A DNA stretch of 32,425 nt, from contig JACMOW010000194.1 of the NCBI GenBank assembly GCA_014377775.1, positions 1 to 32,425 on the forward strand, written 5' to 3'. The DNA comes from Pedobacter sp. (GTDB lineage: Bacteria > Bacteroidota > Bacteroidia > Sphingobacteriales > Sphingobacteriaceae). Shown piece by piece: positions 6,851 to 32,425 of the stretch. The notes below the pieces were generated by a model that was given only the letters and a program-made list of their open reading frames with translations, made no database searches and was not told where the DNA came from. A program made the translations under genes and the position numbers. Position 1 is the stretch's first letter, and the number at the start of each line of letters is the position of its first letter.

Positions 6851-7236
6851 ATGAAAAACCAAAGCATCACTACAACATTCAAAAGAGGTATAGTTACCTT
6901 TTTAATTATTGGAACTAGCTCAATGGTTATGTCTCTTAAAACCATCACGCCTAATGCTAACACTTATGAAATTGTAAGTTCTCAGATTTTTTTTGAGGTA
7001 CTAAAAAAATTAACGACTGGAATTTAAAAGTTGATACCGCTAACTGCGAAGGTAAATTTAGGTTTAAAGTTTATCTTCCCTATCAACAAATTGTATTCAT
7101 CAAATCAACAAGTAGAAGAAATGTTGAAAGCATCATTTAAAGTTAATAACTGTGGTGAAATCGCTTTTACTCAAAAAAGCCTGATGATACTCCTATTTAT
7201 AAAGTATTTAAAATTTATTTAGATATTAGCAGATGA
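6851..7236 (+). pseudogene. Small secreted protein gene broken by three frameshifts
   Basis: The ATG at 6851 opens a 58-codon frame (MKNQSITTTFKRGIVTFLII..., an N-terminal export signal) that stops at 7027. Coding sense continues in other frames. From the A-run at 7003-7009 the -1 frame reads INDWNLKVDTANCEGKF and then VYLPYQQIVFI. Near 7099 it returns to the first frame (NQQVEEMLKASFKVNNCGE, then IAFTQK). At the A-run 7173-7178 it shifts again to KPDDTPIYKVFKIYLDISR and the stop at 7234-7236. Joined, this makes an exported protein of about 128 residues with a consistent composition, directly followed by a terminator. I do not recognise a domain. The first shift lies on an in-frame A-AAA-AAA heptamer, so slippage is conceivable, but three shifts make decay or sequencing error in homopolymers likelier. 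Confidence 0.7.
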
Positions 7237-11773: not shown

Positions 11774-12440
11774 TTACTTCAATCGATCAAAATGTGGTTG
11801 TAAATGCCGTTCTTTAAAATTTCTATTAAGTCTAAATGGTTTACCAACCCACGTGTTGGTTTTTTCTCTAAAGTAACCACATAATCAAAAGTAGGAAGTA
11901 GCATAATTTGAAATCGCTTCAAAGTATCGTTGCCAGACATTTGATATAATTTACCATGAAAGGCGATCTCATTTTTAATTCGGAATGAGTTATCTAGATT
12001 AACTTCCTTTTTAGCAATATTTTCCAATTCTTGAATATCCTTTTCCGTTTTCCTGATGTATAACAGTTCGGCTATTCCCATCTCTAACACCAATCTGAGT
12101 TCGAAGATATCTTGTAACGTGTTTTTATCTATAATTAAAGGATCCAATACGCGTTTAATGTGCCTAGTATATCTGGTCTGGCAAGTACCATTCCTCGTTT
12201 TTTCTTTGTTTCAATCATTCCAAGCATCCGCAGCCGACTAAGTGCTTCTCTTAAAACGTTTCTACTCACACCTAAGGCTTCCGCCAATTCCAATTCCTTT
12301 GGTAACGTATCTCCGGGCCTAAAAGATTTTTTCTTTAGATACACTCTTAGCCTAACTTCAACAACATCTGCCATAGTATTGGAAATGATTGGAGGGAGGT
12401 CTTTACTTAAATCATTAATATCCATAAATCTAATATCCAT
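11774..12440 (-). pseudogene. GntR/FadR-family (FCD) transcriptional regulator, broken by two lesions
   Basis: From ATG 12440 the frame encodes a GntR winged helix (about residues 15-92; RPGDTLPKELELAEALGVSR, then NVLREALSRLRMLGM) and stops after 101 codons. The next 121 codons continue one frame over with an FCD ligand-binding domain (LDPLIIDKNTLQDIFELRLV, FHGKLYQMSGNDTLKRF). Adding one A to the AAA near 12145 would restore LGTLKRVLDPLII, so lesion one is a single-base deletion. Near 11807 the frame runs out as ILKNGIYNHILID, while another frame gives HLQPHFDRLK and a stop at 11774. That is the usual FCD C-terminus, so lesion two is an internal deletion of roughly ten codons that is not a multiple of three. 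Two independent lesions argue for a true pseudogene rather than one sequencing error. Such regulators sense carboxylates or sugar acids; the target here is unknown. Confidence 0.85.
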
Positions 12441-12531: not shown

Positions 12532-14157
12532 TCAATAAGACCCATCTCCAGAAATAATCATTGAAGCCAATCGCTCATCAAGTTTATAAATATCTTTTCT
12601 AAAGTTCAACCTATTATCACGGTCTATAAAAGCAGTAAAATAGGCAATAAATACCGGAACCTTTTCACTAAGCAACACATACTTCTCTTTACCGTTATGC
12701 ATTGCTTTATTGATCGCTGTTTCACTCCACTTATTGTTATCTTTAAGCAAAAAAGCCGCCAATTTTGCAGGCTCAGCTATGCGTATACAACCGTGACTAA
12801 ATGCCCTATCCGTTTCATTAAACAATGATTTGCTTGGAGTATCATGCAGATAAATATTATAGCTGTTGGGGAAAAGAAATTTAACGAGCCCTAATGAATT
12901 CGACGGACCTGGTCGCTGTCTCACTATTGGAAGTCCGTTTCTTTCGCCCACAATTTCCATCTCGTGCTTGTTTAGATAATTTGCGTGTTTTTTCATTCCT
13001 GGGATAATTTCCTTGGCAACAATCGTCTCAGGGATGTTCCAATACGGACTAAAAACCACCTGATTAATCTCTCCGTAAAAGAGTGTAGTAGGGTGTACCG
13101 TTTGACCCACTACGGCATTACAACTCCACAAAATGTTTTCGCCATGGTAAACATGTAATTTAAACTCTGGTATATTAACCGCTAAGTAATCTCCTTTTGA
13201 GGTTGCGGGAAGCCATCTATTCCTTTCCATATTTACTAAAATTTGTTTGATTCTGGTTTTAATGGGTACATTCAATTCAAAGATGGTTTCCTTATTAATT
13301 AGTCCATTTGTATCCAATCCATGCCTTTGCTGGAATCGAATCAGTGCCAGATTTAGCTGTTCATCTAATAAGGTATCCTGTAATTCTCCTTCATAATCTT
13401 CGAGGTAGAACAGTCTTTTTTTAACCTGACTAATAATAAGGGCCTTATTGGCATTTTTGTTGATCGGAAACCAATCTGATTGAGCATCAATCTTGCGGTA
13501 TTTTCTGAGATAGGTTTTTAGCAGCTCGTATTGCCTATAAACAGGTTCCTTTTCTGATAGATTTTTGGCAGGCAATTTCAACAAACTATCCAGATACAAA
13601 TCGTACGGGATTTTTTTTCTTGGCAAAAACCAACTGTTAGTTTTGCTAACCACGGGGTTCATACCCTCCCAAGCTAGGTTAAAGAACACAAAATATTCGG
13701 AGGTAAGCAACAGTTCAAGTTTAATATTCGGTTTCGTTTTTTTTGAACCTATACCCGATACATAGCTCAGTGAATCGAGCGTATTGGTATAAGAAAGCCT
13801 TTTAAATATGCCTTCATCTTCGAGATTCTTTAACCTATTGATCAAATTCCCAGCTTGTTCAATCAATTTACTATTCTCAAACCAGACATAAGAAAAATTT
13901 CTTTTACGATAAAAACTCCTTAAGTCATTTTCGTATCTTTTCAATTTTGGATATTCCAATAAAAAAGTATCGATCTGTGTACTATCAAAACTGATACGCA
14001 ATTGTGAGCTAAAATTCCCTGCAATAGTTTCATTTTGAGCCTTCTTTAAAGAGTCCATTTTTTTTACTTCCTTTTCCATTTGCCCGCAACCTGTAAATGA
14101 AAAAGTAAGATTAAACAGCAAAAGGCAAAATAGTTTCAGGTATTTGTCGTTCATCAT
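12532..14157 (-). CDS. L,D-transpeptidase of the YcbB/LdtD type, lipoprotein
   Basis: The protein has 541 residues and a lipoprotein signal (FSFTGC, Cys24), so it is probably membrane-anchored and faces the peptidoglycan. An N-terminal scaffold domain (about 60-240) is followed by a peptidoglycan-binding module (about 265-297; ALIRFQQRHGLDTNGLINKE) and the YkuD catalytic domain (about 323-480). The active-site signature is complete: His438 in YLHDTP and the S-H-G-C-I-R motif with nucleophile Cys457. It forms 3-3 cross-links between stem peptides, a beta-lactam-tolerant form of wall strengthening associated with envelope stress. It starts 9 bases after cbpM and is the last gene of the long minus-strand unit. 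I chose the first of two adjacent Met codons; the second would fit as well. Confidence 0.9.
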   Translation of the reverse strand: MMNDKYLKLFCLLLFNLTFSFTGCGQMEKEVKKMDSLKKAQNETIAGNFSSQLRISFDSTQIDTFLLEYPKLKRYENDLRSFYRKRNFSYVWFENSKLIEQAGNLINRLKNLEDEGIFKRLSYTNTLDSLSYVSGIGSKKTKPNIKLELLLTSEYFVFFNLAWEGMNPVVSKTNSWFLPRKKIPYDLYLDSLLKLPAKNLSEKEPVYRQYELLKTYLRKYRKIDAQSDWFPINKNANKALIISQVKKRLFYLEDYEGELQDTLLDEQLNLALIRFQQRHGLDTNGLINKETIFELNVPIKTRIKQILVNMERNRWLPATSKGDYLAVNIPEFKLHVYHGENILWSCNAVVGQTVHPTTLFYGEINQVVFSPYWNIPETIVAKEIIPGMKKHANYLNKHEMEIVGERNGLPIVRQRPGPSNSLGLVKFLFPNSYNIYLHDTPSKSLFNETDRAFSHGCIRIAEPAKLAAFLLKDNNKWSETAINKAMHNGKEKYVLLSEKVPVFIAYFTAFIDRDNRLNFRKDIYKLDERLASMIISGDGSY

Positions 14158-14166
14158 TGAAAAAAA

Positions 14167-14466
14167 TTAAAATAAAGGTGCAAAAGTATCCAGTCTATTT
14201 CTGGCCATCATTAGTTCCTGTTGTAAGGTTGCAATCTGTTTCAACAAATTGGCAACCGCATCAACTCCCTCTAAGTTGATGCCCAATTCGTAGTGCAGAC
14301 GAGCCATTTTTTCTACCTCTATTATTTCATCGATAGAGAGGTAATGTTCATCTTCCAGTTCCAATATATTTATCAATCCAAACTGATGAAGAGAAGAGAT
14401 AAACGATAACTCAACATTGTGGTGCATACAGAATTGTGCAATCAGTACCAAATTCTCATTTTTCAT
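14167..14466 (-). CDS. cbpM: Chaperone modulator CbpM
   Basis: This 99-residue, mostly helical protein matches the CbpM/MerR-like modulator family in size and sequence (MARLHYELGINLEGVDAVAN). It ends with a coiled-coil (LLKQIATLQQELMMARNRLD). In E. coli, CbpM binds the J domain of CbpA and blocks both its DnaK co-chaperone and DNA-binding activities. Here its start overlaps the end of cbpA by 11 bases, the usual translationally coupled arrangement, which strongly supports the call. Confidence 0.87.
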   Translation of the reverse strand: MKNENLVLIAQFCMHHNVELSFISSLHQFGLINILELEDEHYLSIDEIIEVEKMARLHYELGINLEGVDAVANLLKQIATLQQELMMARNRLDTFAPLF

Positions 14467-15337
14467 TTTTGATGTTGCTTAACTCGGTGAATAGTTCTAT
14501 TTCTTTAGGCGAAAGATTAGTGGGCAGCTTAATCTGATAGGTAATAAAAAGATCGCCAAACTCATTTTCCTTTTTATAAGCAGGGAAGCCCTTTCCCTTT
14601 AGCTTAACATTTGTGCCAGCCTGAGTTTCGGGAGGCACTTTTAGCTTTACCTTCCCATCAAAAGTATTAACTAGTACTTCTCCACCTAAAAGGGCGATGT
14701 ACAAGTCGAGCTCTACATCGGCATATAAATTTTTTCCATCTCTTTTAAATTTGGTATCGTTGGTAATAGAAAAAGTAATATAGAGATCCCCTTTAGGCCC
14801 TCCATTAGCACCTGGCAAACCGTGATCTTTAATTTTGATGACTTGTCCATTTTCTATTCCGGCTGGAAAAGTTAAGCGAATGTTTTTCCCGTTAATGGTT
14901 ATGGTTTGTTGCTTACTTTGATACACGTCACTCAGCTTAAGATTGAGTGATGCATTAAGGTCCTGTCCTCTAAAATTTGCCTGCCTACCTTGATTACCAG
15001 CACCACCAAACATGGATCCAAAAATATCCGAAAAGTCTTCACCTGCAAACTGCTGACCAGTATTTCTTGGTGGTCGATTTTGTTGTTGACTTGCCTTTTC
15101 AAATTCCTCAGCATGTTTCCAATCCTTGCCATGCGCATCGTATTTCTTCCTTTTATCGGGATCACTTAACACCTCATTGGCCTCATTAATCTCCTTAAAT
15201 TTTTTCTCCGCCTCCTTATTATTAGGATTAAGATCGGGATGATGTTTTCTAGCTAACTTGCGGTATGCCGTTTTAATCTCTGCAACACTTGCCGATTTGT
15301 TTATTTCCAGTAATTTATAATAATCTATATAATCCAT
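14456..15337 (-). CDS. cbpA: DnaJ-type co-chaperone / curved-DNA-binding protein CbpA
   Basis: The 293-residue protein has an N-terminal J domain with the HPD motif (His33-Pro34-Asp35 in KHHPDL). A Gly/Phe/Gln-rich linker at about 75-125 follows, then two class-II J-protein C-terminal domains (about 127-285; LTFPAGIENGQVIKIKDHG, LKVPPETQAGTNVKLKGKGF). There is no zinc-finger region, which separates it from DnaJ and fits CbpA. It stimulates DnaK and may bind curved DNA in stationary phase. It overlaps cbpM and lies 27 bases after the DUF1275 gene in the same direction. Confidence 0.92.
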   Translation of the reverse strand: MDYIDYYKLLEINKSASVAEIKTAYRKLARKHHPDLNPNNKEAEKKFKEINEANEVLSDPDKRKKYDAHGKDWKHAEEFEKASQQQNRPPRNTGQQFAGEDFSDIFGSMFGGAGNQGRQANFRGQDLNASLNLKLSDVYQSKQQTITINGKNIRLTFPAGIENGQVIKIKDHGLPGANGGPKGDLYITFSITNDTKFKRDGKNLYADVELDLYIALLGGEVLVNTFDGKVKLKVPPETQAGTNVKLKGKGFPAYKKENEFGDLFITYQIKLPTNLSPKEIELFTELSNIKNEK

Positions 15338-15364
15338 TTGATAAATTGTAGCCTGTTTGTTAAA

Positions 15365-16102
15365 TTATTTATTACTTTTTAGCTGATGCATTAGATTAGC
15401 ATAATAGCGTTTTACGTTAAGTCTAAAAATATCGTAAAATAAAGCAAAACCTAAAAATGAGATGGGAACCAGAAAAGACATAAAATCTATTCGTCCGAAT
15501 AAATAAGCACCAACTAGCGCACCAAGCATAAAGCAAAAAATAATGGCTAGTCGTAATCTAATTCTCGAAAAAAGTGCATGCTGTACGCCATATCCCTCCA
15601 TTTTTAATTGAGCAAGGTCTATACCAAGATCAGTAAAGGTACCTGTAAGATGAGTTGTCCTAACCACCGAACCCGATATCACAGAAACCAGTGCATTCTG
15701 AAGACCCATCGCAAAAAGAAGGCTTCCAGCAAAAATTTTGTTTGGATATAAAAAATGTCCATCAAACCCCTTCATTGCACAAGCCAATAAGATGATCATT
15801 TCTATAAGAATTGGGATAACATAAGAAAACCTTTGGTGGTGACCTACCCTATTGATGATTAAGCTAGAACTGAATGCCCCGACGAGAAAAAGTAACATCC
15901 AGAGCGCAACAACTCCTGCGTCGCTCCAATTTTGTAAGGCAATTCTTTCTGCAAACAAAGCCGCATGGCCAGTTACATTAGTGGTTAATGCCGAAAAACC
16001 TAAAAAACCTGCTGCATTTACAAAACCAGCAGTAAAACTTAACAAAATTGCCAACCTTAAGTTATGGGTTGCAGTACGTTTTTCTCCAAAATGCCTTAAC
16101 AT
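15365..16102 (-). CDS. DUF1275 (YoaK-like) membrane protein
   Basis: The protein has 245 residues with about six hydrophobic segments. It carries typical YoaK features: an early SFTAGFVNAAGFLGFSALTT followed by NVTGH, and a later GLQNALVSVISGSVVRTTHL then TGTFTDLGIDL. The family is widespread and its transport substrate is not established. It is predicted in the inner membrane. It sits between a P-type ATPase (26 bases upstream) and cbpA (27 bases downstream), so it is probably co-transcribed with them. Confidence 0.85.
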   Translation of the reverse strand: MLRHFGEKRTATHNLRLAILLSFTAGFVNAAGFLGFSALTTNVTGHAALFAERIALQNWSDAGVVALWMLLFLVGAFSSSLIINRVGHHQRFSYVIPILIEMIILLACAMKGFDGHFLYPNKIFAGSLLFAMGLQNALVSVISGSVVRTTHLTGTFTDLGIDLAQLKMEGYGVQHALFSRIRLRLAIIFCFMLGALVGAYLFGRIDFMSFLVPISFLGFALFYDIFRLNVKRYYANLMHQLKSNK

Positions 16103-16128
16103 TAAATTCTAATTTATACTTTATCTCA

Positions 16129-18639
16129 TTAAAATAGTTTAGCGGGAAAATTTCTTTTTATAAACTTCATCCCTTCCATCCATATTACCGATAAAAAACC
16201 AATTACAATACAATATAGCAACTGTTTGGTATTTAAACTATGTAACTGAAAAAATCTTGCTATAGGATTCACATAGAGCAGCAATATTGTTAAAAAGACG
16301 GTAGCACCAATGATCATCCCTACTAGCTTATTTTTATACTTCAAGGTTTCAAAAATATAAAAATAAAAAGAACGATTAACCAACGTAAGAAATATATTAG
16401 CAACAATAAGCATAGTGAAAACCATTGTTCTAACTGTAATTTCATTATAGTTAAGCTCAATAGCATAGCGGTAGATTAATAGGGCGCCTAGTGCAATGGC
16501 CAAGCCTTGAGCAATACTGATGAAGAGCTCATTGAGGTTAAAGAAAGTAGCTGATAACTTTCTTGGTTTTTGTAACATTGTATTTTCTTCCATTGGTTCA
16601 TTTTCATAGATGATAGAGCAGGTTGGCCCCATAATCAGCTCAAGAAAGATAATGTGTACTGGAGAAAAAATATTTGGATATTGCCATCCCAGGGCTAATG
16701 GAACGCATACGGTTAGTATAATTGGAATATGGATGGATATAATATACTGAATGGCCTTTTTCAAGTTTTTATAAATTTTTCTTCCCATGGCAACTGCATC
16801 AACCATTTTCGAAAGATCATCATCTAAAAGAATCAGTGAAGCTGCCTGTTTAGCTAGTTCTGTTCCTTTTTTACCCATTGCAATACCAATGTGAGCAGCT
16901 TTTAAAGCTGGGCCATCATTTACGCCATCCCCTGTCATGGCTACAATTTCTCCGTTGGCTTTTAGTGCATTGATGATCTTTAGTTTTGCTTCTGGAAACA
17001 TCCGCGTAAAAATCTGAGTTTGCTTAACGGCAGCTTGCAGTGCCGAAGCATTTAAATTCATTAACTCATCACCACTAATGCATTTTTCATACCCTTTAAA
17101 GTCTATTTTTTTTGCAATGGCGCTTGTCGTTTCGGCATTGTCGCCTGTAATGATCTTTACATTAATTCCGGCATTATAAAAATTTTGCAACACCGCTTGA
17201 ATATTCTGTTTTGGTGGATCATTAAAGGCAATGAGCCCTAGCAGCTTCATCTTAAAGTTTTGCTGTTTTTTTGGAAAGTGATCTCCTTCAAATAGCGATA
17301 CTCCTACACCAAGCACACGATAACCATCTTTTGCCAGGGCTTTTACTGCATGTTCAACTTTTTGTTTATCAGTAAAATTTAAAGCACTAACCGCCATCAT
17401 GGCTTCGGGCGCACCTTTAGCAGCCACAATCCTTTTCCCCTGTGCATTCTCAAAAATATGTGTCATCATTGGCGGCTTGCCATCCAGCGGATATTCATGT
17501 CTCATAAAGAACGTTGCTCTTTCGTCAACTTTTATAAACTTACTATATGCCTCATGTATAGCTTTTTCCATTGGATCAAAAGCAATAGGTTCACTCGCCC
17601 ACATCGCATTTTCAACTAAGTTCCTCATTTGTGGGCTCAGCTCATCACCAATGGACGAAATTTGATCAGATTCAAAAAGATAGGCTTTGGCCAAGCTCAT
17701 TTTATTTTCGGTTAAGGTGCCCGTTTTATCAGTGCAGATCACGGTAGCACTCCCCAATGTTTCTACGGTTTTCATTTGTTTAACCACAATCCCGATCTTC
17801 ATCATCCGCCAGGCACCCAAAGCCATAAAAGTGGTAAAGGCTACTGGAATTTCTTCTGGAATAATACTCATCGCCAGTGTAAGTGATTTCAGCAAACTAT
17901 CAAAAACATTAAGGGTATTGAGGTAATTGATAAGCCAAACGGCCAAGAAAACGACACCTCCAATAATTACCATTTTCTTTACGAAATTATTGATCTGTTG
18001 TTCTAAAGGAGTTTTTTCTTCCTTTATCAACATAAGGCTGTTACCAATTTTACCTAATTTCGTGTCATGGCCTATAGCCGTAACTACTGCAATGGCAAGT
18101 CCTGTTGCTACATTTGTACCACTAAAAATTTTGTTGTCTTTACTATTAAAATCTTTAAATACAGATAGAGATTCGCCAGTAAGAATAGACTCGTTTACTG
18201 AAAAATCGTTCGAGTTTATGATCATTGCATCAGCAGGAACGGTTGTTCCCTCCTCTACCATCACATAGTCTCCTACCACAAGATCCGCAGTATTTATATC
18301 CTCCATTTTACCGTTTCGGATTACTTTGGAGTTTGGCTGCGAAAAAGATTTTAGCTTTTCTAAAGCATTTCTACTTCTCGAATCTTGATAAAGCGAAATA
18401 GTAGAAATTAGAACAACGGCAAAAGCCAAGAAAATGCCATTAGCGAAATCTCCACTAATCAGATAAATAGCGATGGCAACTAGCAATAAGATTACCATTG
18501 GCTCTTTAAATAAGCTTAGGAATATCCTGAAAAAGGCATGTTCCTTTTTGTATGACAAAAGATTAAGGCCGTATTCTTTCCTCGCCAACAGCACTTGATA
18601 GCTTGTTAAACCTGGCGTTTTTTTAATATCAAAAGCCAT
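16129..18639 (-). CDS. P-type cation-transporting ATPase (PII-like, PEEIP variant)
   Basis: This 836-residue pump has all the P-type signatures: actuator loop TGES (154-157), phosphorylation motif DKTGT with Asp304, KGAPEAM nucleotide-binding segment, ITGDN and MTGDGVNDGPAL. About ten membrane segments are arranged 2+2+6. The M4 motif is PEEIP (261-265) instead of the PEGLP of Ca pumps, leaving an extra acidic residue at the ion site, so the transported ion (Ca, Mn, Mg or monovalent) cannot be assigned. There is no N-terminal heavy-metal domain. It starts 12 bases after the BON-domain gene and shares the minus-strand unit with a second, different P-type ATPase. Confidence 0.92.
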   Translation of the reverse strand: MAFDIKKTPGLTSYQVLLARKEYGLNLLSYKKEHAFFRIFLSLFKEPMVILLLVAIAIYLISGDFANGIFLAFAVVLISTISLYQDSRSRNALEKLKSFSQPNSKVIRNGKMEDINTADLVVGDYVMVEEGTTVPADAMIINSNDFSVNESILTGESLSVFKDFNSKDNKIFSGTNVATGLAIAVVTAIGHDTKLGKIGNSLMLIKEEKTPLEQQINNFVKKMVIIGGVVFLAVWLINYLNTLNVFDSLLKSLTLAMSIIPEEIPVAFTTFMALGAWRMMKIGIVVKQMKTVETLGSATVICTDKTGTLTENKMSLAKAYLFESDQISSIGDELSPQMRNLVENAMWASEPIAFDPMEKAIHEAYSKFIKVDERATFFMRHEYPLDGKPPMMTHIFENAQGKRIVAAKGAPEAMMAVSALNFTDKQKVEHAVKALAKDGYRVLGVGVSLFEGDHFPKKQQNFKMKLLGLIAFNDPPKQNIQAVLQNFYNAGINVKIITGDNAETTSAIAKKIDFKGYEKCISGDELMNLNASALQAAVKQTQIFTRMFPEAKLKIINALKANGEIVAMTGDGVNDGPALKAAHIGIAMGKKGTELAKQAASLILLDDDLSKMVDAVAMGRKIYKNLKKAIQYIISIHIPIILTVCVPLALGWQYPNIFSPVHIIFLELIMGPTCSIIYENEPMEENTMLQKPRKLSATFFNLNELFISIAQGLAIALGALLIYRYAIELNYNEITVRTMVFTMLIVANIFLTLVNRSFYFYIFETLKYKNKLVGMIIGATVFLTILLLYVNPIARFFQLHSLNTKQLLYCIVIGFLSVIWMEGMKFIKRNFPAKLF

Positions 18640-18651
18640 TTATTTGAATTA

Positions 18652-19314
18652 CTAGCTTACCATATAATCAATAACCAGCTCGTTATGCACGGTCCAAACC
18701 CCAGGTGCATTCCATGCCATACGCTCTGCTTCATCCTTTTGGAAAATGGAATGAACCGTTCCACTTAAAATTACCGTATTTTCAAAAACGCTTACCTTAA
18801 TATTATTTTCATCAATGGCCCAATTTCTGATTAACGCATCTTGTATCCCCAGTTTTTCTACTTCATCTGCGGTTGCAGATTTGATTATAATATGATTGGC
18901 GATTGCTTTGATGCCACCGATGTGTTCTATACATTTTATAGCTGCCTGCTTTTGGGCGTTCCATTTTACAGTTCCCTCTAGCATAACCCAACCATTTTCT
19001 ACTTGTACCTGGATTTTGTCTTCCGGAACTTCCAGGTTAAACTTTAGCGCACCAAGCACCTCACTGGCAATTAAAGAGTCTGATTTTTGTTTATCACTCG
19101 CAAACTTTACTTCAATTTTTTCGATTACGGCTTTCACTCCTTTCACGGTTTTAGTGGCGTGATCTGCACCTCTTTTCTTTGCATAAGTATCTACCGTTCC
19201 TGTAAGGGTAACTATACCATCGCGAGAAGTTACCGCTATTTCGGCACCAACCAATAGTGGTTCCCATTTTAGGGCTTTTTCTACATCATTCTGTAGTTTT
19301 TCATCATTGCTCAT
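18652..19314 (-). CDS. Triple BON-domain protein (OsmY-like, no signal peptide)
   Basis: The 220-residue protein consists of three BON modules at about 3-70, 77-145 and 148-217. Each has the repeating pattern V-x-(L/V)-x-G-x-V (VTLTGTVDTYAKK, VMLEGTVKWNAQK, VILSGTVHSIFQK). BON domains bind lipid or membrane surfaces and occur in osmotic-stress proteins such as OsmY. No signal peptide is visible, so it is predicted cytoplasmic and could act at the inner face of the membrane, perhaps on the pump encoded 12 bases downstream. It follows the SHOCT gene by 6 bases. Confidence 0.9.
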   Translation of the reverse strand: MSNDEKLQNDVEKALKWEPLLVGAEIAVTSRDGIVTLTGTVDTYAKKRGADHATKTVKGVKAVIEKIEVKFASDKQKSDSLIASEVLGALKFNLEVPEDKIQVQVENGWVMLEGTVKWNAQKQAAIKCIEHIGGIKAIANHIIIKSATADEVEKLGIQDALIRNWAIDENNIKVSVFENTVILSGTVHSIFQKDEAERMAWNAPGVWTVHNELVIDYMVS

Positions 19315-19320
19315 TACTTT

Positions 19321-19581
19321 CTATTTAGGTGTGTCTATCTTAATTATTTTTTGATAGGGCTTATTGCCTGGATCCCCTTTTAATAAATTGCTATCTCTTT
19401 TAAACGCTTCGGCAGTAATGTCTCCAGCTGCAAATCGCTTCTTTAGAATGTCTAATGGAGAATTTTTCTCTTTCCGTTGTCCGGGAATATCAAAAGGAAG
19501 AATAAATATCCAAACAAGGATTATCACAAAAACGATCCACCATATAAAGTCCATTCCTAAAAAACTACCAGCGTAAAACAT
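19321..19581 (-). CDS. Small membrane protein with SHOCT domain
   Basis: This 86-residue protein has one N-terminal membrane helix (about 10-31; FIWWIVFVIILVWIFILPF). A C-terminal SHOCT motif follows at about 42-67 (PLDILKKRFAAGDITAEAFK). SHOCT is a short oligomerisation-type domain found at the ends of membrane and stress proteins. It appears to be the first gene of the unit running to the L,D-transpeptidase. A CRP/FNR-like half-palindrome lies about 58 bases upstream of its start. Confidence 0.85.
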   Translation of the reverse strand: MFYAGSFLGMDFIWWIVFVIILVWIFILPFDIPGQRKEKNSPLDILKKRFAAGDITAEAFKRDSNLLKGDPGNKPYQKIIKIDTPK

Positions 19582-19632: not shown

Positions 19633-19646
19633 TTGATTGCGATCAC
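19633..19646. promoter_or_regulatory. CRP/FNR-like site upstream of the SHOCT-BON-ATPase unit
   Basis: TTGAT-TGCG-ATCAC matches the FNR-type layout TTGAT-N4-ATCAA at all but the last base. It shares its right half-site ATCAC with the larger palindrome at 22426-22447. Its centre is about 58 bases before the SHOCT start codon. Binding by the regulator encoded at 23349-24401 is inferred, not shown. Confidence 0.5.
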
Positions 19647-19664
19647 CTATTAAATTGATTCACA

Positions 19665-22334
19665 TCATCGAATAGACTTATAAAGCTGAACAATTACAAT
19701 CGGTAAAAGACTTGCCAATATAGCCACTAACCAAATATTTGCAGGCACAATAACTAGTCCGAGCGCTGCTCTGCTTTGTGAGAAAACATATACACCGATT
19801 ATAAGGACCGCGCAGAGCAGCAAAGCCAGCCAAACAAACTTATTTTTGGTTACTTCGTTTATCCATATTCCAGAATGTACCGACGACATATTGAAAACAT
19901 GGAATAGCTGCGAAAATGCAAGAGTAATAAAGGCGATGTTGTTGATAAGATGCGGATTGGTGGTTATAAAATATTTACAGTAGAATACAGCTACTAATAC
20001 CGATAAAGTCATTAGGCAGGCGTAGATAAAGATCATCACCCAGTTTTTATTAGAGATAATTTCTAATTTGGGATCTCGTGGTGGTTTTAGCATCACCGAT
20101 TGGTCTCCTTTTCCCAGACCTAGCGCCAAAGCAGGGAAAACGTCGGTTATCATATTTAGAAATAAGATTTGCAAAGGAAGCAGCATGGAGCCAGAAGCTA
20201 CAAAACCAAGAATGGTTACGATAAATATTTCGCTCAGATTACAAGAAACCAGATAAATTACAAACCGTTGAATGTTCTGGAAAATTTCCCTACCATGGGC
20301 AACGGCTCCCGCAATTGAAGTAAAAGAATCGTCTTTAAGTACGATGCTTGCCGTTTCTTTTGCCACCTGCGTACCACGCAGCCCCATCGCTATGCCAATA
20401 TCTGCCTTTTTTAAAGCTGGAGCATCATTTACGCCATCTCCGGTCATCGCTACAACAAAACCCGCCTTCTGATAAACATTAACAATCTCCAATTTCTGTT
20501 TAGGCGTAGTTCGAGCAAACACCGCTGTAGAGAGAATTTTTTCCCTCCATTTTTTACTGATCGATTCCATTTTCGGCAGCTCTTTCCCTGCAATCACCTG
20601 ATCATCATTATCTACCAGCATTCCAATACGCTGAGCAACATTCAGTGCCGTCATCGGATGGTCTCCAGTAATCATTACAATTTTTATTCCTGCTTTTCTG
20701 CAGGCAATAATTGCTGGTTTGATATCCAACCTAGGTGGATCCAGAAAACCTATCATCCCAACATAGATTAACTGTTGTAAAAAATTTTCCTTTTCAGTTT
20801 TTTTTTCTTCACGGTAGGCAAATGCCAATACCCGAAGCCCATCTGCAGCCATCTTTTCCGATTCTGCTAAAATGGCTTTTTTTTGGGTTGGAGTAATTTT
20901 TTCAATTTTATCACCTATCTGAATAGTGCTACACTTTAAAAGCAGGTCTTCAACCGATCCCTTTGCCGAAATAAAATAATTTTTGTCCCTTTGATGAAGA
21001 GTTCCCATTATTTTTGTTTCTGAACTGAAGGGAACTTCAGATAAACGCTTGTATTTATTATTAATTGTTGTTGGCTTTAATGCCATCGCATTTGCCAAAC
21101 CAATGAGGGCAATCTCTATCGGATCTCCAACCGCCTTTTTCTTTTCTTCCACTTGTTCCATTGGCGCGTTGTTGCACAATACACCAATTAAAGTCATTTT
21201 TTCGAAATTCTCCTTATTTTTTAATACTGCTTCATTTTTATAGGTTATGATCCCTTTTCTGATGGAAACAGCGACTTCCTCATCTGGGAAAGAGAGCTGT
21301 GCGATGTGTATTTTATTTTCTGTAAGTGTTCCCGTTTTATCGGTAAGTATTACATTTACTCCGCCAAGGGTTTCTACGGCGGAGAGTTTTTTTACAATGG
21401 CATTTTTGTTGGCCATTAGTAACATGCCATATGCAAGGGCAACAGTGGCCACAATAGGTAAGCCCTCTGGAAATGCGGCTACCGCTAAGGCGATAGAAGT
21501 TTCCAAAATCAATAACCACGACCTTCCTTCTATAACGCCCGAAAGGGAAAATATAGCAGTCATACCTAAGGTAATCCAAATCAGTTTTCGAGTAAGCGCA
21601 CTTATCTTTTTGTCTAAAGGCGTTGCGGTACTGGTAGCACTATCAACCATAATTGTGATTTTTCCCAGCTCCGTATTTTCCCCAATACCCGTAACTACAA
21701 ATTTACCATTACCGTTCATAATGGCTGTTCCCTTAAACACCATGTTTATGCGATCTGCAAGATCAACATCTGAAGTTAGTGTATCTATATTTTTAAGCAC
21801 GGGAAAAGATTCGCCCGTGAGGGAAGACTCATCGCAAGCTAGCTGATTGCACTCCACAATCCTTCCATCTGCCGACACCAAATCACCAGCTTCGAGCAGC
21901 ATCAAATCTCCAGGCACTACTTGATCCGAAGGCACATCAACAACCTTACCCCCGTGAATAACTTTGGAAAAGGAAATATCCATTTTTCTAAGCGCCATCA
22001 TAGAACTTCTGGCCTGTAATTCCATAAAAAATCCAATTAGGGCATTTACCAAGATCACAATCAAAATAGCAACAGACTCGATTGTATTCTGAAAATAAAA
22101 AGAAACGCCTGCTGCAACAAAAAGCAGGTACACGATTGGGCTTTTGAACTGTCCAACCAGCATTTTCAAAATACTTTTCTTTTTTTGCGATTGATGGCTA
22201 TTCAGCCCAAATTGGATGGAACGGCTGGCTGATTCTGCCTTTGAAATTCCTTGGGATAAGTCCGTTTGCAACGTTTTAAAAATTTCTTCAACTGTTAATG
22301 TATGTGGAGCGGGTATGGGATATTTAATTTTCAT
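19665..22334 (-). CDS. P-type cation-transporting ATPase (PII, PEGLP, Ca-pump-like)
   Basis: I place the start at the ATG at 22334 (889 residues). The frame could extend to a TTG at 22370, but that adds twelve residues without family character. It has an N-terminal cation-ATPase domain (about 11-65), TGES at 173-176, PEGLP at 289-293 as in Ca pumps, phosphorylation Asp332 in TDKTGT, KGSVED, ITGDHP and MTGDGVNDAPAL. Ten membrane segments are expected. Ca or a similar divalent cation is the likely substrate. It stands first and divergent from the histidine-kinase operon, with the 22-bp CRP/FNR palindrome about 100 bases upstream, and is 83 bases before the SHOCT gene in the same direction. Confidence 0.92.
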   Translation of the reverse strand: MKIKYPIPAPHTLTVEEIFKTLQTDLSQGISKAESASRSIQFGLNSHQSQKKKSILKMLVGQFKSPIVYLLFVAAGVSFYFQNTIESVAILIVILVNALIGFFMELQARSSMMALRKMDISFSKVIHGGKVVDVPSDQVVPGDLMLLEAGDLVSADGRIVECNQLACDESSLTGESFPVLKNIDTLTSDVDLADRINMVFKGTAIMNGNGKFVVTGIGENTELGKITIMVDSATSTATPLDKKISALTRKLIWITLGMTAIFSLSGVIEGRSWLLILETSIALAVAAFPEGLPIVATVALAYGMLLMANKNAIVKKLSAVETLGGVNVILTDKTGTLTENKIHIAQLSFPDEEVAVSIRKGIITYKNEAVLKNKENFEKMTLIGVLCNNAPMEQVEEKKKAVGDPIEIALIGLANAMALKPTTINNKYKRLSEVPFSSETKIMGTLHQRDKNYFISAKGSVEDLLLKCSTIQIGDKIEKITPTQKKAILAESEKMAADGLRVLAFAYREEKKTEKENFLQQLIYVGMIGFLDPPRLDIKPAIIACRKAGIKIVMITGDHPMTALNVAQRIGMLVDNDDQVIAGKELPKMESISKKWREKILSTAVFARTTPKQKLEIVNVYQKAGFVVAMTGDGVNDAPALKKADIGIAMGLRGTQVAKETASIVLKDDSFTSIAGAVAHGREIFQNIQRFVIYLVSCNLSEIFIVTILGFVASGSMLLPLQILFLNMITDVFPALALGLGKGDQSVMLKPPRDPKLEIISNKNWVMIFIYACLMTLSVLVAVFYCKYFITTNPHLINNIAFITLAFSQLFHVFNMSSVHSGIWINEVTKNKFVWLALLLCAVLIIGVYVFSQSRAALGLVIVPANIWLVAILASLLPIVIVQLYKSIR

Positions 22335-22425
22335 ATAAATTACTGCTTGCCCAAATGAAGTTAAAGGCAATTTTTTTCTAATTTAAGTAGATCAGAAAGT
22401 TTAAAGAATGATACACCCACAACTG

Positions 22426-22447
22426 ATTAGTGATGAAGATCACTAAT
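22426..22447. promoter_or_regulatory. 22-bp CRP/FNR-family palindrome in the divergent promoter region
   Basis: Two perfect 9-base arms, ATTAGTGAT and ATCACTAAT, flank GAAG. The core can be read as AGTGA-N6-TCACT, the spacing of CRP sites (TGTGA-N6-TCACA), or as GTGAT-N4-ATCAC, the spacing of FNR sites. It lies midway between the ATPase start (about 102 bases) and the histidine-kinase start (about 109 bases). A CRP/FNR-type regulator is encoded in the second operon, so autoregulation and co-regulation are the natural inference. Confidence 0.75.
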
Positions 22448-22545: not shown

Positions 22546-23367
22546 ATGATAGCTAGCCTAGTTGGTGTTGAAGAACAGGTGCATGAACGAACTACTTCCT
22601 TACAGGAAACCGTTCAAATTTTACAGAGAACAAAAGAAGAGCTAAGCCTATCCCTCCAAAAAGAAAAGGAACTGGGTAAGCTTAAGAGTCGTTTTGTATC
22701 CATCGCTTCGCACGAATTTCGTACACCATTAAGCACAATTCAGCTTTCGGCCGCTTTGATTGAACGGTACGCCATTCCTAGTGAAAATGAAAACATCGGC
22801 AAACATGTGTTAAAAATTAAAGATGCTGTGCTAAATATTACGGCCATTTTGAATGATTTTCTTTCGCTAGAAAAACTCAATGCAGGAAAGGTACTGGTAG
22901 AGCCCAGCCTCTTTAACCTCATGGAAATGGCCGAAGAAATTGCAGAAGAGATGCAAGTTACGCTTAAAGGTGGGCAGAAAATTATCTTTAAACATTGCGG
23001 CGAAAACAAAATGATCAGGTTAGACCAGAACCTACTAAAAAACTGTATCATTATCTTGATAGACAATGCCATCAAATACTCAGGCGAAAAAACATTAATA
23101 CAGTTCTACACTAAAACTACTGAAAAAGGCTGCACAGTTAGAATTTGTGACAATGGTATTGGCATACCCGATATAGACCATAAGCACCTATTTGAGGCGT
23201 TTTTTAGAGCCCACAATACTGGAAAGATTTCGGGAAATGGCCTTGGTTTAAGTATTCTTTCGAGATATACAGGGCTGATGAAGGGGACGATAAATTTTAA
23301 GAGCAGAATTAATAAGGGTACACTATTCACACTTACATTCCCACAAGCATGTGTAAAACAGTCCTAA
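22546..23367 (+). CDS. Soluble histidine kinase without sensor domain
   Basis: The 273-residue protein starts with a coiled-coil (about 8-48) that runs straight into HisKA with phospho-acceptor His56 (IASHEFRTP). A complete HATPase follows: Asn174 in the N-box (LIDNAIKYS), G1 DNGIGIP from Asp202, and G2 GNGLGLS near 220. There is no signal peptide, membrane segment or PAS domain. An in-frame TAA lies just upstream of the ATG, so no longer form exists here. The coiled-coil resembles the linker that normally follows a PAS domain, which suggests an ancestral sensor domain was lost or that input comes from a partner. It overlaps the receiver-CRP gene by 19 bases and is its likely cognate kinase. 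Confidence 0.92.
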   Translation: MIASLVGVEEQVHERTTSLQETVQILQRTKEELSLSLQKEKELGKLKSRFVSIASHEFRTPLSTIQLSAALIERYAIPSENENIGKHVLKIKDAVLNITAILNDFLSLEKLNAGKVLVEPSLFNLMEMAEEIAEEMQVTLKGGQKIIFKHCGENKMIRLDQNLLKNCIIILIDNAIKYSGEKTLIQFYTKTTEKGCTVRICDNGIGIPDIDHKHLFEAFFRAHNTGKISGNGLGLSILSRYTGLMKGTINFKSRINKGTLFTLTFPQACVKQS

Positions 23368-24401
23368 TTATAGAAGACCATGACGAAATAAGGAGTAACT
23401 TAATTGAGATCCTTGAAATGGCTTTATATACTGTTATTGAGGCAGATAATGGCAAAACTGGCGTAGAAATGGCCATAAAGTATCTGCCAGACATCATCTT
23501 GTGTGACATCATGATGCCAGAACTCGATGGGTATGGCGTGCTTTACATACTCAATAAACATGTAGAAACAGCGGGTATACCTTTTATATTTTTAACTGCT
23601 AAAGCCGAACACACCGACCTGCGCAAGGGTATGGAACTTGGGGCCGACGACTATTTGGTTAAACCTTTTGATGATATGGAGCTTTTAAATGCGATAGACA
23701 TTAGGCTTAAAAAAAAGGCAGCACAGGACAGCCATCGAGAAGTTAAAAAAGAAGAATTTAAGGCGCCTGTAACCGAAGCTGATGGCTTAATCGCATTTAA
23801 AAAGATTATAGACTGCCGTAAAACACGTGATTTTAAAAAGAACCAAGTGATTTACTATGAGGGCGATCATGGAAAAGGTCTTTATCTGATTATTTCGGGT
23901 AAGATAAAAACAATCAGACTATCTGAGGATGGTAGAGAACTGATGACTGGCTTGCATATAGCAGGCGATTACATTGGCATTAATGCCATTTTTAACAATA
24001 GCGCTTATACCGATACTGCCACTACGATTGAGGATAGCCAACTCTGTCTGATACCAAAAGAAGAAATGGACTCAATGCTCAGTCTCCATCCCGAAGTGGC
24101 TCGAAAATTTATTCAGCTCTTGTCGCATGATAATCAGGAAAAAGAAGAACAACTCTTGCAGCTAGCCTATCATTCGGTTAGAAAGAAAATGGCTGGCACT
24201 TTAATCAAACTGCATCATCAACTTATTGATAATCAGGTTGGCTTTCATGTAAGTAGAGAAGATTTGGCCGCGATGGCTTGCATGGCCACAGAAACGGTAA
24301 GCAGAACCTTAACTGATTTTAAGGACGAAAAACTGATAGATCGTTTGGGCACCAACATTAGGGTGCTGGATTTTGATGGCCTTTCAAAAATGAAAAATTA
24401 A
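23349..24401 (+). CDS. Response regulator fused to a CRP/FNR-type transcription factor
   Basis: This 350-residue fusion has a receiver at about 4-120 (Glu9-Asp10 acidic pocket, phospho-acceptor Asp53 in LCDIMMPE, Thr83, Lys105). A cNMP-binding-like beta-roll follows at about 150-248 (DFKKNQVIYYEGDHGKGLYL) and then a CRP-family helix-turn-helix at about 270-345. The recognition helix reads M-A-T-E-T-V-S-R (Glu315, Ser318, Arg319), matching the FNR pattern E-x-x-S-R that reads TGAT half-sites. There is no FNR-style N-terminal Cys cluster, so oxygen sensing through an iron-sulphur centre is not indicated. Phosphorylation by the overlapping upstream kinase is the likely input. It lies 9 bases before mlaE, and its predicted half-site matches the palindromes at 22426 and 19633. 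Confidence 0.92.
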   Translation: MCKTVLIIEDHDEIRSNLIEILEMALYTVIEADNGKTGVEMAIKYLPDIILCDIMMPELDGYGVLYILNKHVETAGIPFIFLTAKAEHTDLRKGMELGADDYLVKPFDDMELLNAIDIRLKKKAAQDSHREVKKEEFKAPVTEADGLIAFKKIIDCRKTRDFKKNQVIYYEGDHGKGLYLIISGKIKTIRLSEDGRELMTGLHIAGDYIGINAIFNNSAYTDTATTIEDSQLCLIPKEEMDSMLSLHPEVARKFIQLLSHDNQEKEEQLLQLAYHSVRKKMAGTLIKLHHQLIDNQVGFHVSREDLAAMACMATETVSRTLTDFKDEKLIDRLGTNIRVLDFDGLSKMKN

Positions 24402-25170: not shown

Positions 25171-25944
25171 ATGGAACAAAAAAAAATAACCGATTTAAGC
25201 CAAGAAAAAGTAATAGAGATTAAAGAATTGGATAAATCTTTTGGCGAATTAAAAGTGCTTTCGTCGGCAGACCTTAATTTAATTAAAGGAGAAAATTTAG
25301 TTGTACTTGGTAAATCGGGTACAGGCAAATCAGTACTCATCAAAATCATTATAGGACTTTTAAAACCTGATAAGGGCATGGTAAACGTATTGGGCAACAC
25401 AGTTGATCAGATTACCTATAAGGAGCTTTTAGCACTAAGGCTTCGTGTGGGCTTTTCTTTTCAGAGCAGCGCACTGTATGATAGTATGACGGTTAAGCAA
25501 AACCTTGAATTCCCGTTGGTACGCAATCAGCGATCGCTAACCAAAGCCGAAACGGCCAAGCGTGTAGACGAAATGTTAGATGCAGTAGGGTTACTAAAAA
25601 CACTCCATCAAATGCCCTCTGAGCTTTCTGGAGGCCAACGCAAGCGTATAGGCATTGCCAGAACACTTATTCTTCAGCCAGAAATTATGTTGTACGACGA
25701 GCCATCAGCAGGGCTAGACCCAATAACTTGCATGGAAATCAACAAACTCATTAATGATGTTCAAGAACGTTTCCACACCAGTGCGATTATTATTACACAC
25801 GATTTGACCTGCGCAAAAGAGGTAGGAAATAGGTTTGCCATGCTTACAGATGGGCGTTTCGAAAAACAGGGAACTTTCGAAGAAGTTTTTAACTCGGGCA
25901 ACAAACAAGCACAACCATTTTATGATTATAATTTTATTCAATAG
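25171..25944 (+). CDS. mlaF: MlaF-family ABC transporter ATPase
   Basis: The 257-residue ATPase is complete: Walker A GKSGTGKS (47-54), Q-loop around SFQSSALYDSM, signature LSGGQRKR, Walker B IMLYDEPSAGLDP and a switch His in IITHDL. The FQSSALYDSMTV region and the following NLEFPL are characteristic of the Mkl/MlaF subfamily. It powers the MlaE permease encoded 7 bases upstream and precedes the MCE-protein gene by 3 bases. Confidence 0.93.
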   Translation: MEQKKITDLSQEKVIEIKELDKSFGELKVLSSADLNLIKGENLVVLGKSGTGKSVLIKIIIGLLKPDKGMVNVLGNTVDQITYKELLALRLRVGFSFQSSALYDSMTVKQNLEFPLVRNQRSLTKAETAKRVDEMLDAVGLLKTLHQMPSELSGGQRKRIGIARTLILQPEIMLYDEPSAGLDPITCMEINKLINDVQERFHTSAIIITHDLTCAKEVGNRFAMLTDGRFEKQGTFEEVFNSGNKQAQPFYDYNFIQ

Positions 25945-25947
25945 CAA

Positions 25948-26934
25948 ATGCCATTAACAGACAACCGCCGCAAAATAACTGTGGGCTTATTCATCACATT
26001 AGGTCTACTGATTTTTATCCTAGCCATTTTTACGCTGGGATCACAGAAAAAAACATTCGTAAAAAGTTTTACGTTAAATGTAATCTTTCACAACATACAG
26101 GGTCTTAAGAAAGGCAATAATGTGTGGTTTTCAGGCGTAAAAATCGGAACCATTAAAAAAATCGAATTCTTCGGGAGCTCGCAAGTTAGAATCTTTTTAA
26201 GCATAGAAGAAGACGTGCAAAAGTATATCCATAAAGACGCTGGAGCTAGCATTAGTGCCGATGGACTAATTGGCAACAAGATTGTGGTAATTACTGGTGG
26301 AAGTTTAAAATTCCCCTTTGTAGAAGATGGCGATCAACTAAAAGTTGATGCTTCCTTATCTACAGACGATGTGATGAAGACCTTGCAAGTGAACAACAAG
26401 AATTTGTTAGAGATTACCACAGATTTCAAACTGCTGGCTAAAAACCTAGTAAACGGCAAGGGTGCAGCTGGGGCACTATTATCAGACGAGCAGATCGCAT
26501 CAGACTTCAAAGCCATGGTTGCCAATTTGAACAAAACTGCGCAGGCCAGCAACAAAACTGCGCAAGAGTTAAGCAAATTCTCTACCACATTGAATACAAA
26601 AAACGGACTAATGGGCAAAATAATGACGGATACTGTTGTATTTGGTAAGTTTCAGCAATCTGCAGCTTCCTTACAACGTTCCGCCCAATCTGCAGAAACG
26701 ATGGCTGCAAATCTGAATGCAGCTTCGGCTAAACTAAAATCTAGTGATAACGCAGCAGGACTATTCCTAAACGACCCAAAAACTGCTATGCAAATTAAGG
26801 CCATCATGACCAATTTGGAGCTTGGTAGTAAAAAGTTAGATGAGAATTTGGAAGCTTTGCAAAGTAATTTTCTTTTGAGAGGATTCTTCAAAAAAAGAGC
26901 AAGGGAGGAAGCGAAAAAAGTGGAGCAACCATAA
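25948..26934 (+). CDS. mlaD: MlaD-like MCE-domain lipid transport protein
   Basis: This 328-residue protein has one N-terminal membrane helix (about 9-30) and an MCE domain at about 38-118 (IQGLKKGNNVWFSGVKIGTI, SADGLIGNKIVVITGG). A long Ala/Lys/Asn-rich helical tail follows (about 130-310) with repeated QASNKTAQE-like heptads. MCE proteins form hexameric rings that bind the permease and carry lipids through the periplasm. It is longer than E. coli MlaD (183 residues), as is usual in Bacteroidota, so the tail may form a conduit. It is the last gene of the kinase-regulator-Mla operon. Confidence 0.9.
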   Translation: MPLTDNRRKITVGLFITLGLLIFILAIFTLGSQKKTFVKSFTLNVIFHNIQGLKKGNNVWFSGVKIGTIKKIEFFGSSQVRIFLSIEEDVQKYIHKDAGASISADGLIGNKIVVITGGSLKFPFVEDGDQLKVDASLSTDDVMKTLQVNNKNLLEITTDFKLLAKNLVNGKGAAGALLSDEQIASDFKAMVANLNKTAQASNKTAQELSKFSTTLNTKNGLMGKIMTDTVVFGKFQQSAASLQRSAQSAETMAANLNAASAKLKSSDNAAGLFLNDPKTAMQIKAIMTNLELGSKKLDENLEALQSNFLLRGFFKKRAREEAKKVEQP

Positions 26935-31219: not shown

Positions 31220-31227
31220 TAAATTTG
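31220..31227 (+). promoter_or_regulatory. Bacteroidota -7 element of the mnmH-selD operon
   Basis: TAAATTTG is a perfect match to the TAnnTTTG element read by the Bacteroidota housekeeping sigma factor. It lies 21 bases before the ATG at 31249 and overlaps an in-frame TTG at 31225, which excludes the TTG as the start. A clear -33 TTTG is not seen. Confidence 0.6.
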
Positions 31228-31248
31228 CAGCATTATATAAACTTTATA

Positions 31249-32271
31249 ATGAAACAAATCATTTCCATAGACTTTTATTTTGAAAATTTAAACCATATTC
31301 CACTTATTGACGTGAGGTCGCCTGGAGAATTTTTTATAGGACATATTCCAAATGCTATTAATCTTGAATTATTTACTGATGAAGAACGAGCAGTAGTGGG
31401 CACCGCTTACAAAAAAGAATCGAAAGAAAGAGCCATTGAAATTGGGTTTGAGTATGTAAAACCCAAACTGAATGATTTTATAACTAAATCGGTTGCAACT
31501 GCACCTAACAAAGAAGTTGCTATATATTGTTGGCGTGGGGGAATGAGAAGCAATGCTTTTGCCGATCATCTTATCGAGAATGGTTTTGAAAAGGTTTATG
31601 TTATTGAAAAAGGGTACAAAGCTTTCCGCAATTATGTGCTACAATTTTTTGAGCAACCCTTTAATCTTAAAGTTCTAGGCGGATATACTGGCACAGGTAA
31701 AACTGAAATACTCCATTCTTTAAAAAAGAAAGGGCAACAAGTGATTGATTTGGAAGGATTGGCAAATCATAGAGGTTCTGTTTTTGGTGGGATAGACCTT
31801 CCGCCACAGCCAACAACGGAGAAATTTGAAAACAATCTATTTTCCATACTTCAGAACTTAAATCATAACCTACCCATCTGGGTTGAAGATGAAAGCAGAT
31901 TGATTGGCCAAGTAGCGATTCCAAACGTTTTTTTTAATAAAATGCGTGAGATGCCAGTCTATTTTTTAGACGTGCCTCTGGAAGAAAGGACAAAACACCT
32001 TGTTAGCACTTACGCAAGTCTTAGCCATCATAAATTAGGAGATGCCATTAGTCGAATCACTAAAAGGCTTGGATACGATAATGCCAAATTTGCTCAAGAA
32101 GCGCTTGAAAAAAGAAATTATCATAAAGTAGTAGAGATTACATTAATATATTACGACAAATACTATTTAAAAGGATTACAAAAACGTCAAAATTCTGGAA
32201 TTCTAGAATTTATAACTCCTTCCGTCAATCCTGAGGAAACGGCCGATTTTTTAATAAACTTACTAAATTAA
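31249..32271 (+). CDS. mnmH: tRNA 2-selenouridine synthase
   Basis: I place the start at the ATG at 31249 (340 residues), because an upstream TTG sits inside the promoter. The N-terminus is a rhodanese domain (about 5-135; PLIDVRSPGEFFIGHIPNAI) with the catalytic Cys94 in YCWRGGMRS. The C-terminal half is a P-loop domain with Walker A GGYTGTGKT (144-152). The enzyme (SelU/YbbB) replaces sulphur with selenium in wobble 2-thiouridine of tRNAs for Lys, Glu and Gln, using selenophosphate. The selD gene begins 6 bases downstream, supplying that donor, so the pair forms an operon. Confidence 0.95.
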   Translation: MKQIISIDFYFENLNHIPLIDVRSPGEFFIGHIPNAINLELFTDEERAVVGTAYKKESKERAIEIGFEYVKPKLNDFITKSVATAPNKEVAIYCWRGGMRSNAFADHLIENGFEKVYVIEKGYKAFRNYVLQFFEQPFNLKVLGGYTGTGKTEILHSLKKKGQQVIDLEGLANHRGSVFGGIDLPPQPTTEKFENNLFSILQNLNHNLPIWVEDESRLIGQVAIPNVFFNKMREMPVYFLDVPLEERTKHLVSTYASLSHHKLGDAISRITKRLGYDNAKFAQEALEKRNYHKVVEITLIYYDKYYLKGLQKRQNSGILEFITPSVNPEETADFLINLLN

Positions 32272-32277
32272 ATAAAA

Positions 32278-32425
32278 ATGAACAAAGGTATAAAACTAAC
32301 AAGTTTTAGTCATGGTGCAGGTTGCGGATGCAAATTATCACCAAAAGTATTAACTACAATATTAGAATCTAACAGCCCAAAAATGCAAGACACCCGCCTA
32401 TTGGTGGGAAACGATACTAGAGATG
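32278..32425 (+). CDS. selD: Selenide, water dikinase SelD (5' end only)
   Basis: Forty-nine codons are visible before the window ends. They match the SelD N-terminus closely ([19 protein letters not shown], then LLVGNDTRD). The active position is a Cys codon (TGC) in G-C-G-C-K, not selenocysteine (TGA). The enzyme makes selenophosphate from selenide and ATP. With mnmH just upstream, its main role here is probably tRNA selenation; whether the organism makes selenoproteins cannot be judged from this window. Confidence 0.93.

Follow-up and report, generated by a model that had tools for sequence, protein, structure and literature searches.

We identified the perfect 22-bp palindrome at positions 22426-22447 of the window (the whole 32,425-nucleotide stretch of Pedobacter DNA that was analysed) as the predicted distal box of a tandem promoter, in which a strong RTGAT-N4-ATCAY box is followed 22 bp on by a weaker box and then by a -7 box of the form TAnnTTTG. 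We consider it probable that this is an activator promoter under the control of proteins that combine a receiver with a CRP-type DNA-binding part (receiver-CRP proteins), that it belongs to a low-oxygen regulon, and that the oxygen signal enters through a second kinase/regulator pair on another contig of the host, C141. The features of the window on which the argument depends are as follows.

12532-19581, minus strand: co-directional genes for SHOCT-like, BON, ATPase2, YoaK-like, CbpA/DnaJ, MerR_2 (CbpM-like) and L,D-transpeptidase proteins; the SHOCT-like gene is under the Pfam cut-off and the YoaK-like gene is named from sequence
19633-19646, minus strand: proximal box of the SHOCT-BON promoter, GTGATCGCAATCAA = TTGATTGCGATCAC, its centre 22 bp from that of the distal box
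19655-19668, minus strand: distal box of the SHOCT-BON promoter, ATGATGTGAATCAA = TTGATTCACATCAT, exact core
19665-22334, minus strand: ATPase1, a P-type cation ATPase whose best NCBIfam match, calcium PMR1-type, is under the model cut-off
22378-22385, minus strand: -7 box of the ATPase1 promoter, TAAATTAG, which departs from TAnnTTTG at one base and lies at +51 counted from the distal centre
22408-22421, minus strand: proximal weak box of the ATPase1 promoter, TGTGGGTGTATCAT, predicted centre -41.5, 22 bp from the distal box
22426-22447, no strand assigned: perfect palindrome ATTAGTGAT-GAAG-ATCACTAAT, with 9-nt arms, 100% complementary, and a 4-nt gap
22430-22443, read on the minus strand: distal box of the ATPase1 promoter, the palindrome core GTGATCTTCATCAC, predicted centre -63.5
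22546-23367, plus strand: histidine kinase (HisKA, HATPase_c) of 273 aa, without the FixL-type PAS of its orthologues
23349-24401, plus strand: Receiver-cNMP_binding-HTH_Crp regulator with an E-T-V-S-R recognition helix
24411-25163, plus strand: MlaE (Pfam)
25171-25944, plus strand: MlaF-like, named from sequence
25948-26934, plus strand: MlaD-like, named from sequence

Elsewhere in the window, two overlapping minus-strand ORFs (11779-12147 and 12135-12440) resemble the two halves of one GntR/FadR-type regulator (named from sequence), an arrangement that suggests a frameshift. At 31225-32425 a selenouridine-synthase-like gene precedes a SelD-like gene that the contig end cuts off after its beginning; both are named from sequence.

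The palindrome reported in the earlier note is present with fully complementary arms, its centre 102 bp from the ATPase1 start codon and 109 bp from that of the kinase. The same note took it for a simple operator shared midway between divergent units, and here the geometry fits the ATPase1 side, where the proximal box is a good match in its ATCAT half (22408-22412) only. Toward the kinase, neither TAnnTTTG nor TAnnTTGY was found within 80 bp of the box in the window, and autoregulation is therefore unsupported by the geometry. A fixed operator geometry in the kinase direction was rejected, since the element is absent in the window and its position varies in the relatives: TAnnTTGT occurs at +28/+29 in four and at +53 in one, and TAnnTTGC at +26 in one. 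The TAnnTTGT of loci L033-L036, on the kinase side of the box and 28-29 bp from its centre, resembles TAnnTTGY, the SM5 alternative promoter motif given in PMC9723704.

Exact GTGATN4ATCAC occurs twice in the host genome, the second time inside a gene, against four occurrences of the reversed control; the genome scan proposed earlier thus found no enrichment, and we rejected this form as a genome-wide signal. The broader RTGATN4ATCAY occurs 28 times against 20, with five intergenic sites (the window palindrome and four others) and the other 23 inside called ORFs, and it was rejected as a host genome-wide signal as well. Within the window, 21 matches to GTGATN4ATCAC with at most two mismatches compare with 12.1 expected. 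Given the lack of enrichment of GTGATN4ATCAC in the host, the motif alone proves little. What argues against chance is the conservation of the core, its position and the promoter geometry, all read from sequence, and not the number of motifs.

The regulator was searched for in 118 genomes, 70 of them of the host's genus besides the host, and matches at 66-74% identity defined 15 orthologous loci in 14 genus genomes, around each of which 15 kb was taken. Relatives of ATPase1, SHOCT, BON and YoaK recur near the orthologous regulators in varied order. The comparison of upstream regions suggested in the earlier note bore out a conserved CRP/FNR-type box: TGAT-N4-ATCA is exact upstream of the kinase/regulator genes in 14 of the 15 loci and has one mismatch in L045. 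Its position was scored upstream of the kinase, except in L042, which has no adjacent kinase and was scored upstream of the regulator; L040 and L041, two of the 15, are near-identical at the box region. We also counted dyads without a preset motif, taking all 4- and 5-base dyads with spacings of 0-11 over the 23.6 kb of 92 intergenic regions, those of the window among them. TGAT-N4-ATCA ranked first, seen 35 times against a shuffle mean of 1.15, and A or G precedes TGAT in 59 of 68 half-sites. The exact 22-bp sequence was rejected as the conserved unit; the TGAT core alone is conserved, and the outer arm bases ATTA/TAAT are not kept in the relatives.

The tandem arrangement emerged when 17 sites, window included, were aligned by their centres and read away from the kinase. 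RTCA[TC] stands at +24 in 14 of them, and 12 have a -7-like element between +50 and +52, nine with TAnnTTTG exactly and the other three with one mismatch to it. L043, L044 and L046 have neither the second half-site nor the -7 element on that side, and L043 and L044 have a weaker partner box 22 bp away on the opposite side. Counting all sites and both directions, exact TAnnTTTG was found 12 times within 80 nt: seven times at +51, four at +50 and once at +29. Nineteen of 28 pairs of boxes, allowing one mismatch in each, are exactly 22 bp apart, against at most one in 300 shuffles. In a flavobacterium, TAnnTTTG serves as the sigma-A -7 box and spans -12 to -5 (PMC9723704). The predicted box centres of -63.5 and -41.5 are counted from this flavobacterial -7 box and not from a mapped start.

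To follow the arrangement across the genus we wrote it as a composite pattern (box, N18, RTCAT, N21-23, TAnnTTTG) and searched 99 genus genomes. The composite has 38 matches in 29 of the 99, against none for the reversed composite and none when the second box was moved by half a turn. A single box with a -7 box at the -41.5 distance is more widespread, with 120 matches in 72 of the 99 genomes against five reversed. Of the 90 genomes with the kinase 29 have the tandem composite, and of the nine without the kinase none, a comparison of small numbers; eight of those nine have single -41.5 sites, which shows that the single box also exists outside this system. In L107, L108, L124, L127, L130, L132, L134 and L135, a near-identical single-box promoter stops 3-4 nt short of the start codon for a protein of 216 aa (PdxH-like, named from sequence), which hints at leaderless or very short-leader transcripts there.

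A profile of 22 non-redundant composites from other genomes, scored at every window position on both strands, placed two minus-strand sites at the top: 22436.5, before ATPase1, with 22.0, and 19661.5, before SHOCT-BON, with 17.0. The best of 30 shuffles reached 13.3, and the lowest leave-one-out training score was 23.9, a little above that of the ATPase1 promoter. With this cluster's promoters removed, the 18 composites left gave the same two leading places (17.6 and 18.4) and a third at 13.2; one of 60 shuffled windows reached 16.0, against 17.6 for the ATPase1 promoter. The third position, 25925.5 on the plus strand, lies inside the Mla genes, and its scores of 12.8 and 13.2 are within the shuffle range. 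The profile ranks and the 22-bp pairs agree with the earlier proposal that the ATPase1 and SHOCT-BON-ATPase2-CbpA promoters both carry the box. The weaker site noted before SHOCT is indeed there (19633-19646); a second box with an exact core at 19655-19668, exactly 22 bp away, had been overlooked. The predicted -7 box of the SHOCT-BON promoter is poor (GATTTTTA).

The genes behind the composites extend well beyond the cluster. Loci around 30 of the 38 composites were covered, and a downstream ORF was called in 29 of them; these ORFs encode YceI-like proteins (11), cbb3 subunit I-like proteins (four), ATPase1 (three), acetate kinase (three), CoA hydrolase/transferase (three), Usp (one) and others (four). 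Pfam confirmed a single representative from each of five groups: YceI, oxidase (COX1), acetate kinase, CoA-transferase and Usp. The regulon had been described as local; that the same composite precedes cbb3 oxidase, acetate kinase, YceI, Usp and CoA-transferase genes throughout the genus argues for a wider one. The host has a single strict composite, which stands upstream of a YceI-like gene on contig C141, and an intergenic box next to a nosZ operon on contig C106.

The kinases of the orthologous loci point to the signal. In 14 of these loci the kinase has about 400 residues and an N-terminal PAS, and the best solved relatives of the L039 kinase are FixL structures (1dp6, 1.6e-30, for the whole kinase; 8js5, 8.8e-32, for the PAS alone). 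We assigned the heme His and Arg positions by FixL numbering. All 14 genus orthologues and the C141 kinase have His at the proximal position, as do 55 of the 57 named relatives whose PAS is at least 50% identical; the distal position is Arg in all 57, and the intermediate Arg after the heme His is kept in 42 of the 57 and in five of the 14 genus orthologues. The orthologous and C141 kinases are thus predicted to carry a heme-binding PAS with a proximal His, as FixL does. The best 80 loci of the named search extend the kinase/regulator pair to Mucilaginibacter, Flavobacterium, Chryseobacterium, Arcticibacter and Daejeonella. In 67 of these 80 loci the neighbouring kinase gives a PAS match, weak in some; six have a kinase with no such match, and seven no adjacent kinase. 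The box lies within 450 nt upstream in 26 of the 67 PAS-matched loci.

The kinase of the window has the HisKA and HATPase_c core, and its frame holds no PAS and hence no proximal heme His. It begins in the coiled linker, two codons past an in-frame TAA, and its frame has 274 codons, whereas each of 111 other matches (E <= 1e-80) from the 99 genus genomes searched, 90 of which, counting the host, have the kinase, reaches at least 390; the PAS itself was checked in a subset of loci. With 72-76% identity between the kinase core and its 19 closest matches, and 67-74% between the regulator and 14 orthologues, neither protein looks decayed. As the host genome is in 339 contigs and 88% complete, the absence of the PAS could be an assembly error or deletion. 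The sole PAS match found in the host is on C141.

That contig carries a PAS-bearing kinase with a regulator 52% identical to that of the window, and also a radical-SAM protein (HemN-like, named from sequence), a metal-binding P-type ATPase, a FixG-type protein, a fused cbb3 subunit I/II protein over the cut-off and a CcoP-like subunit below it. At 6650-7069 (L075), a 140-aa ORF resembles only the N-terminal part of D-lactate dehydrogenase, with a box directly before it and the HemN-like gene after it. In the host, at 88% completeness, three CRP-type HTH proteins score above the family cut-off. The FNR-type E-x-x-S-R helix attributed to the window regulator was recovered as E-T-V-S-R, a helix that presumably suits TGAT half-sites; the C141 regulator carries E-T-V-S-R as well, and the protein on contig C274 has V at the E position. 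Where a single factor had been proposed, the host therefore has two regulators with the same recognition helix, and sequence cannot decide between them.

In the mechanism that we favour, a phosphorylated dimer of a receiver-CRP protein, which joins a FixJ-like receiver to a FixK-like DNA-binding part, would bind the strong box at -63.5, and a second dimer would bind the weak box at -41.5, two helical turns off and on the same face of the DNA. Together, the two dimers would recruit RNA polymerase at the -7 box for transcription of ATPase1. A second tandem promoter, with two full boxes, would drive the SHOCT-BON-ATPase2-YoaK-CbpA-CbpM-L,D-transpeptidase unit. The regulon looks like a FixL/FixJ-K-like one that answers low oxygen, which we consider a likelier signal than the general stress suggested earlier because the orthologous kinases beside the regulator have a FixL-type heme-PAS and the paralogous pair lies in a cbb3 cluster. 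Since the local kinase has no PAS, oxygen would probably be sensed through the C141 pair, and the window kinase may act as an oxygen-blind kinase or phosphatase.

Other readings of the same data were weighed. The tandem promoters could be read by the C141 paralogue only, the window pair being a decaying duplicate with a sensor-less kinase. The lack of a PAS in the window kinase fits this, and so does C141, where the host's sole PAS match and a second regulator with this helix are found; we nevertheless regard it as unlikely, because the kinase core (72-76% identical to relatives) and the regulator (67-74%) are both intact and give no sign of decay. It is improbable that the palindrome is a shared midpoint operator serving the locally encoded regulator as sole controller of a local stress regulon and of its own operon. 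The box does lie between divergent units and recurs upstream of orthologous kinase/regulator genes, and the regulator's helix would suit its half-sites. Such a model is difficult to reconcile with composite promoters before many unlinked genes, with a paralogue of the same helix on C141, with composites in genomes whose best regulator match is only about 50% identical (e.g. G033, G037, G044 and G062) and with a kinase side that has no -7 element in the window.

The boxes could also belong to another CRP-family regulator, the receiver-CRP neighbours being incidental, as the single -41.5 sites in eight of nine kinase-less genomes might indicate. The tandem composites, present in 29 of 90 genomes with the kinase and none of the nine without (small numbers), speak against this, as does the V at the E position of the one remaining CRP-type protein above the cut-off (host genome 88% complete), and we find this reading decidedly improbable. 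That the palindrome arose by chance, or is a terminator or hairpin with no regulator, agrees with the lack of GTGATN4ATCAC enrichment in the host; it is scarcely credible for a palindrome placed between divergent genes and not after one, with the conservation and geometry described above.

If a tandem activator promoter of a low-oxygen regulon is the correct reading, the composite is a base-exact signature by which the regulon can be listed across the genus, and it connects P-type pumps, chaperone and cell-wall genes with both cbb3 respiration and the metabolism of acetate. More tentatively, and with some doubt on our part, Pedobacter and its relatives may have a shortened FixL-J-K cascade with a -63.5/-41.5 operator, of which the host has a duplicated, oxygen-blind branch whose sensorless kinase tunes the low-oxygen regulon. 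Such a cascade would consist of a heme-PAS kinase and one fused receiver/FixK-like protein acting on a dedicated tandem operator, and the low-oxygen regulon of the sensorless branch would comprise ion pumps, chaperone and cell-wall genes. The PAS-less kinase, whether a natural variant or an assembly deletion, would offer a natural test of FixL-type kinase function without its sensor.

The nearest known system is FixLJ-FixK2 of Bradyrhizobium diazoefficiens, which shares the FixL-type heme-PAS kinase (in the orthologous loci and on C141), the TGA-N6-TCA core and the cbb3- and nosZ-linked targets. According to PMC5582078, the FixK2 box is TTG(A/C)-N6-(T/G)CAA and nos is under FixK2 control. Set against the FixK/FNR-type box TTGA-N6-TCAA, the sites described here match in the TGA-N6-TCA core, whereas the flanking T is mostly replaced by A or G (59 of 68 half-sites). 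The window regulator has the CRP-type HTH with the E-x-x-S-R recognition helix expected of FixK/FNR-type proteins. It has a receiver and a CRP-type output and no LuxR/GerE-type output of the FixJ kind, so that receiver and CRP-type DNA-binding part form a single protein, unlike in FixLJ-FixK2. The tandem 22-bp arrangement and the window kinase without PAS are further differences. Neither a Bacteroidota FixL-type system with this operator nor a Bacteroidota paper on the tandem -63.5/-41.5 geometry was recognised in the open-licence literature, outside which most subscription papers lie.

In E. coli, the FNR/CRP class II and tandem-site promoters have a box at -41.5 and an upstream box in phase with it. 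The promoters predicted here resemble them in both respects. The N-terminal Fe-S cysteine cluster of FNR is absent from the window regulator, which has a receiver at its N-terminus and cysteines at positions 2, 52, 156, 233 and 311. The promoters differ from those of E. coli in that the upstream box is placed at -63.5 and that the positions are deduced from the flavobacterial -7 box (PMC9723704).
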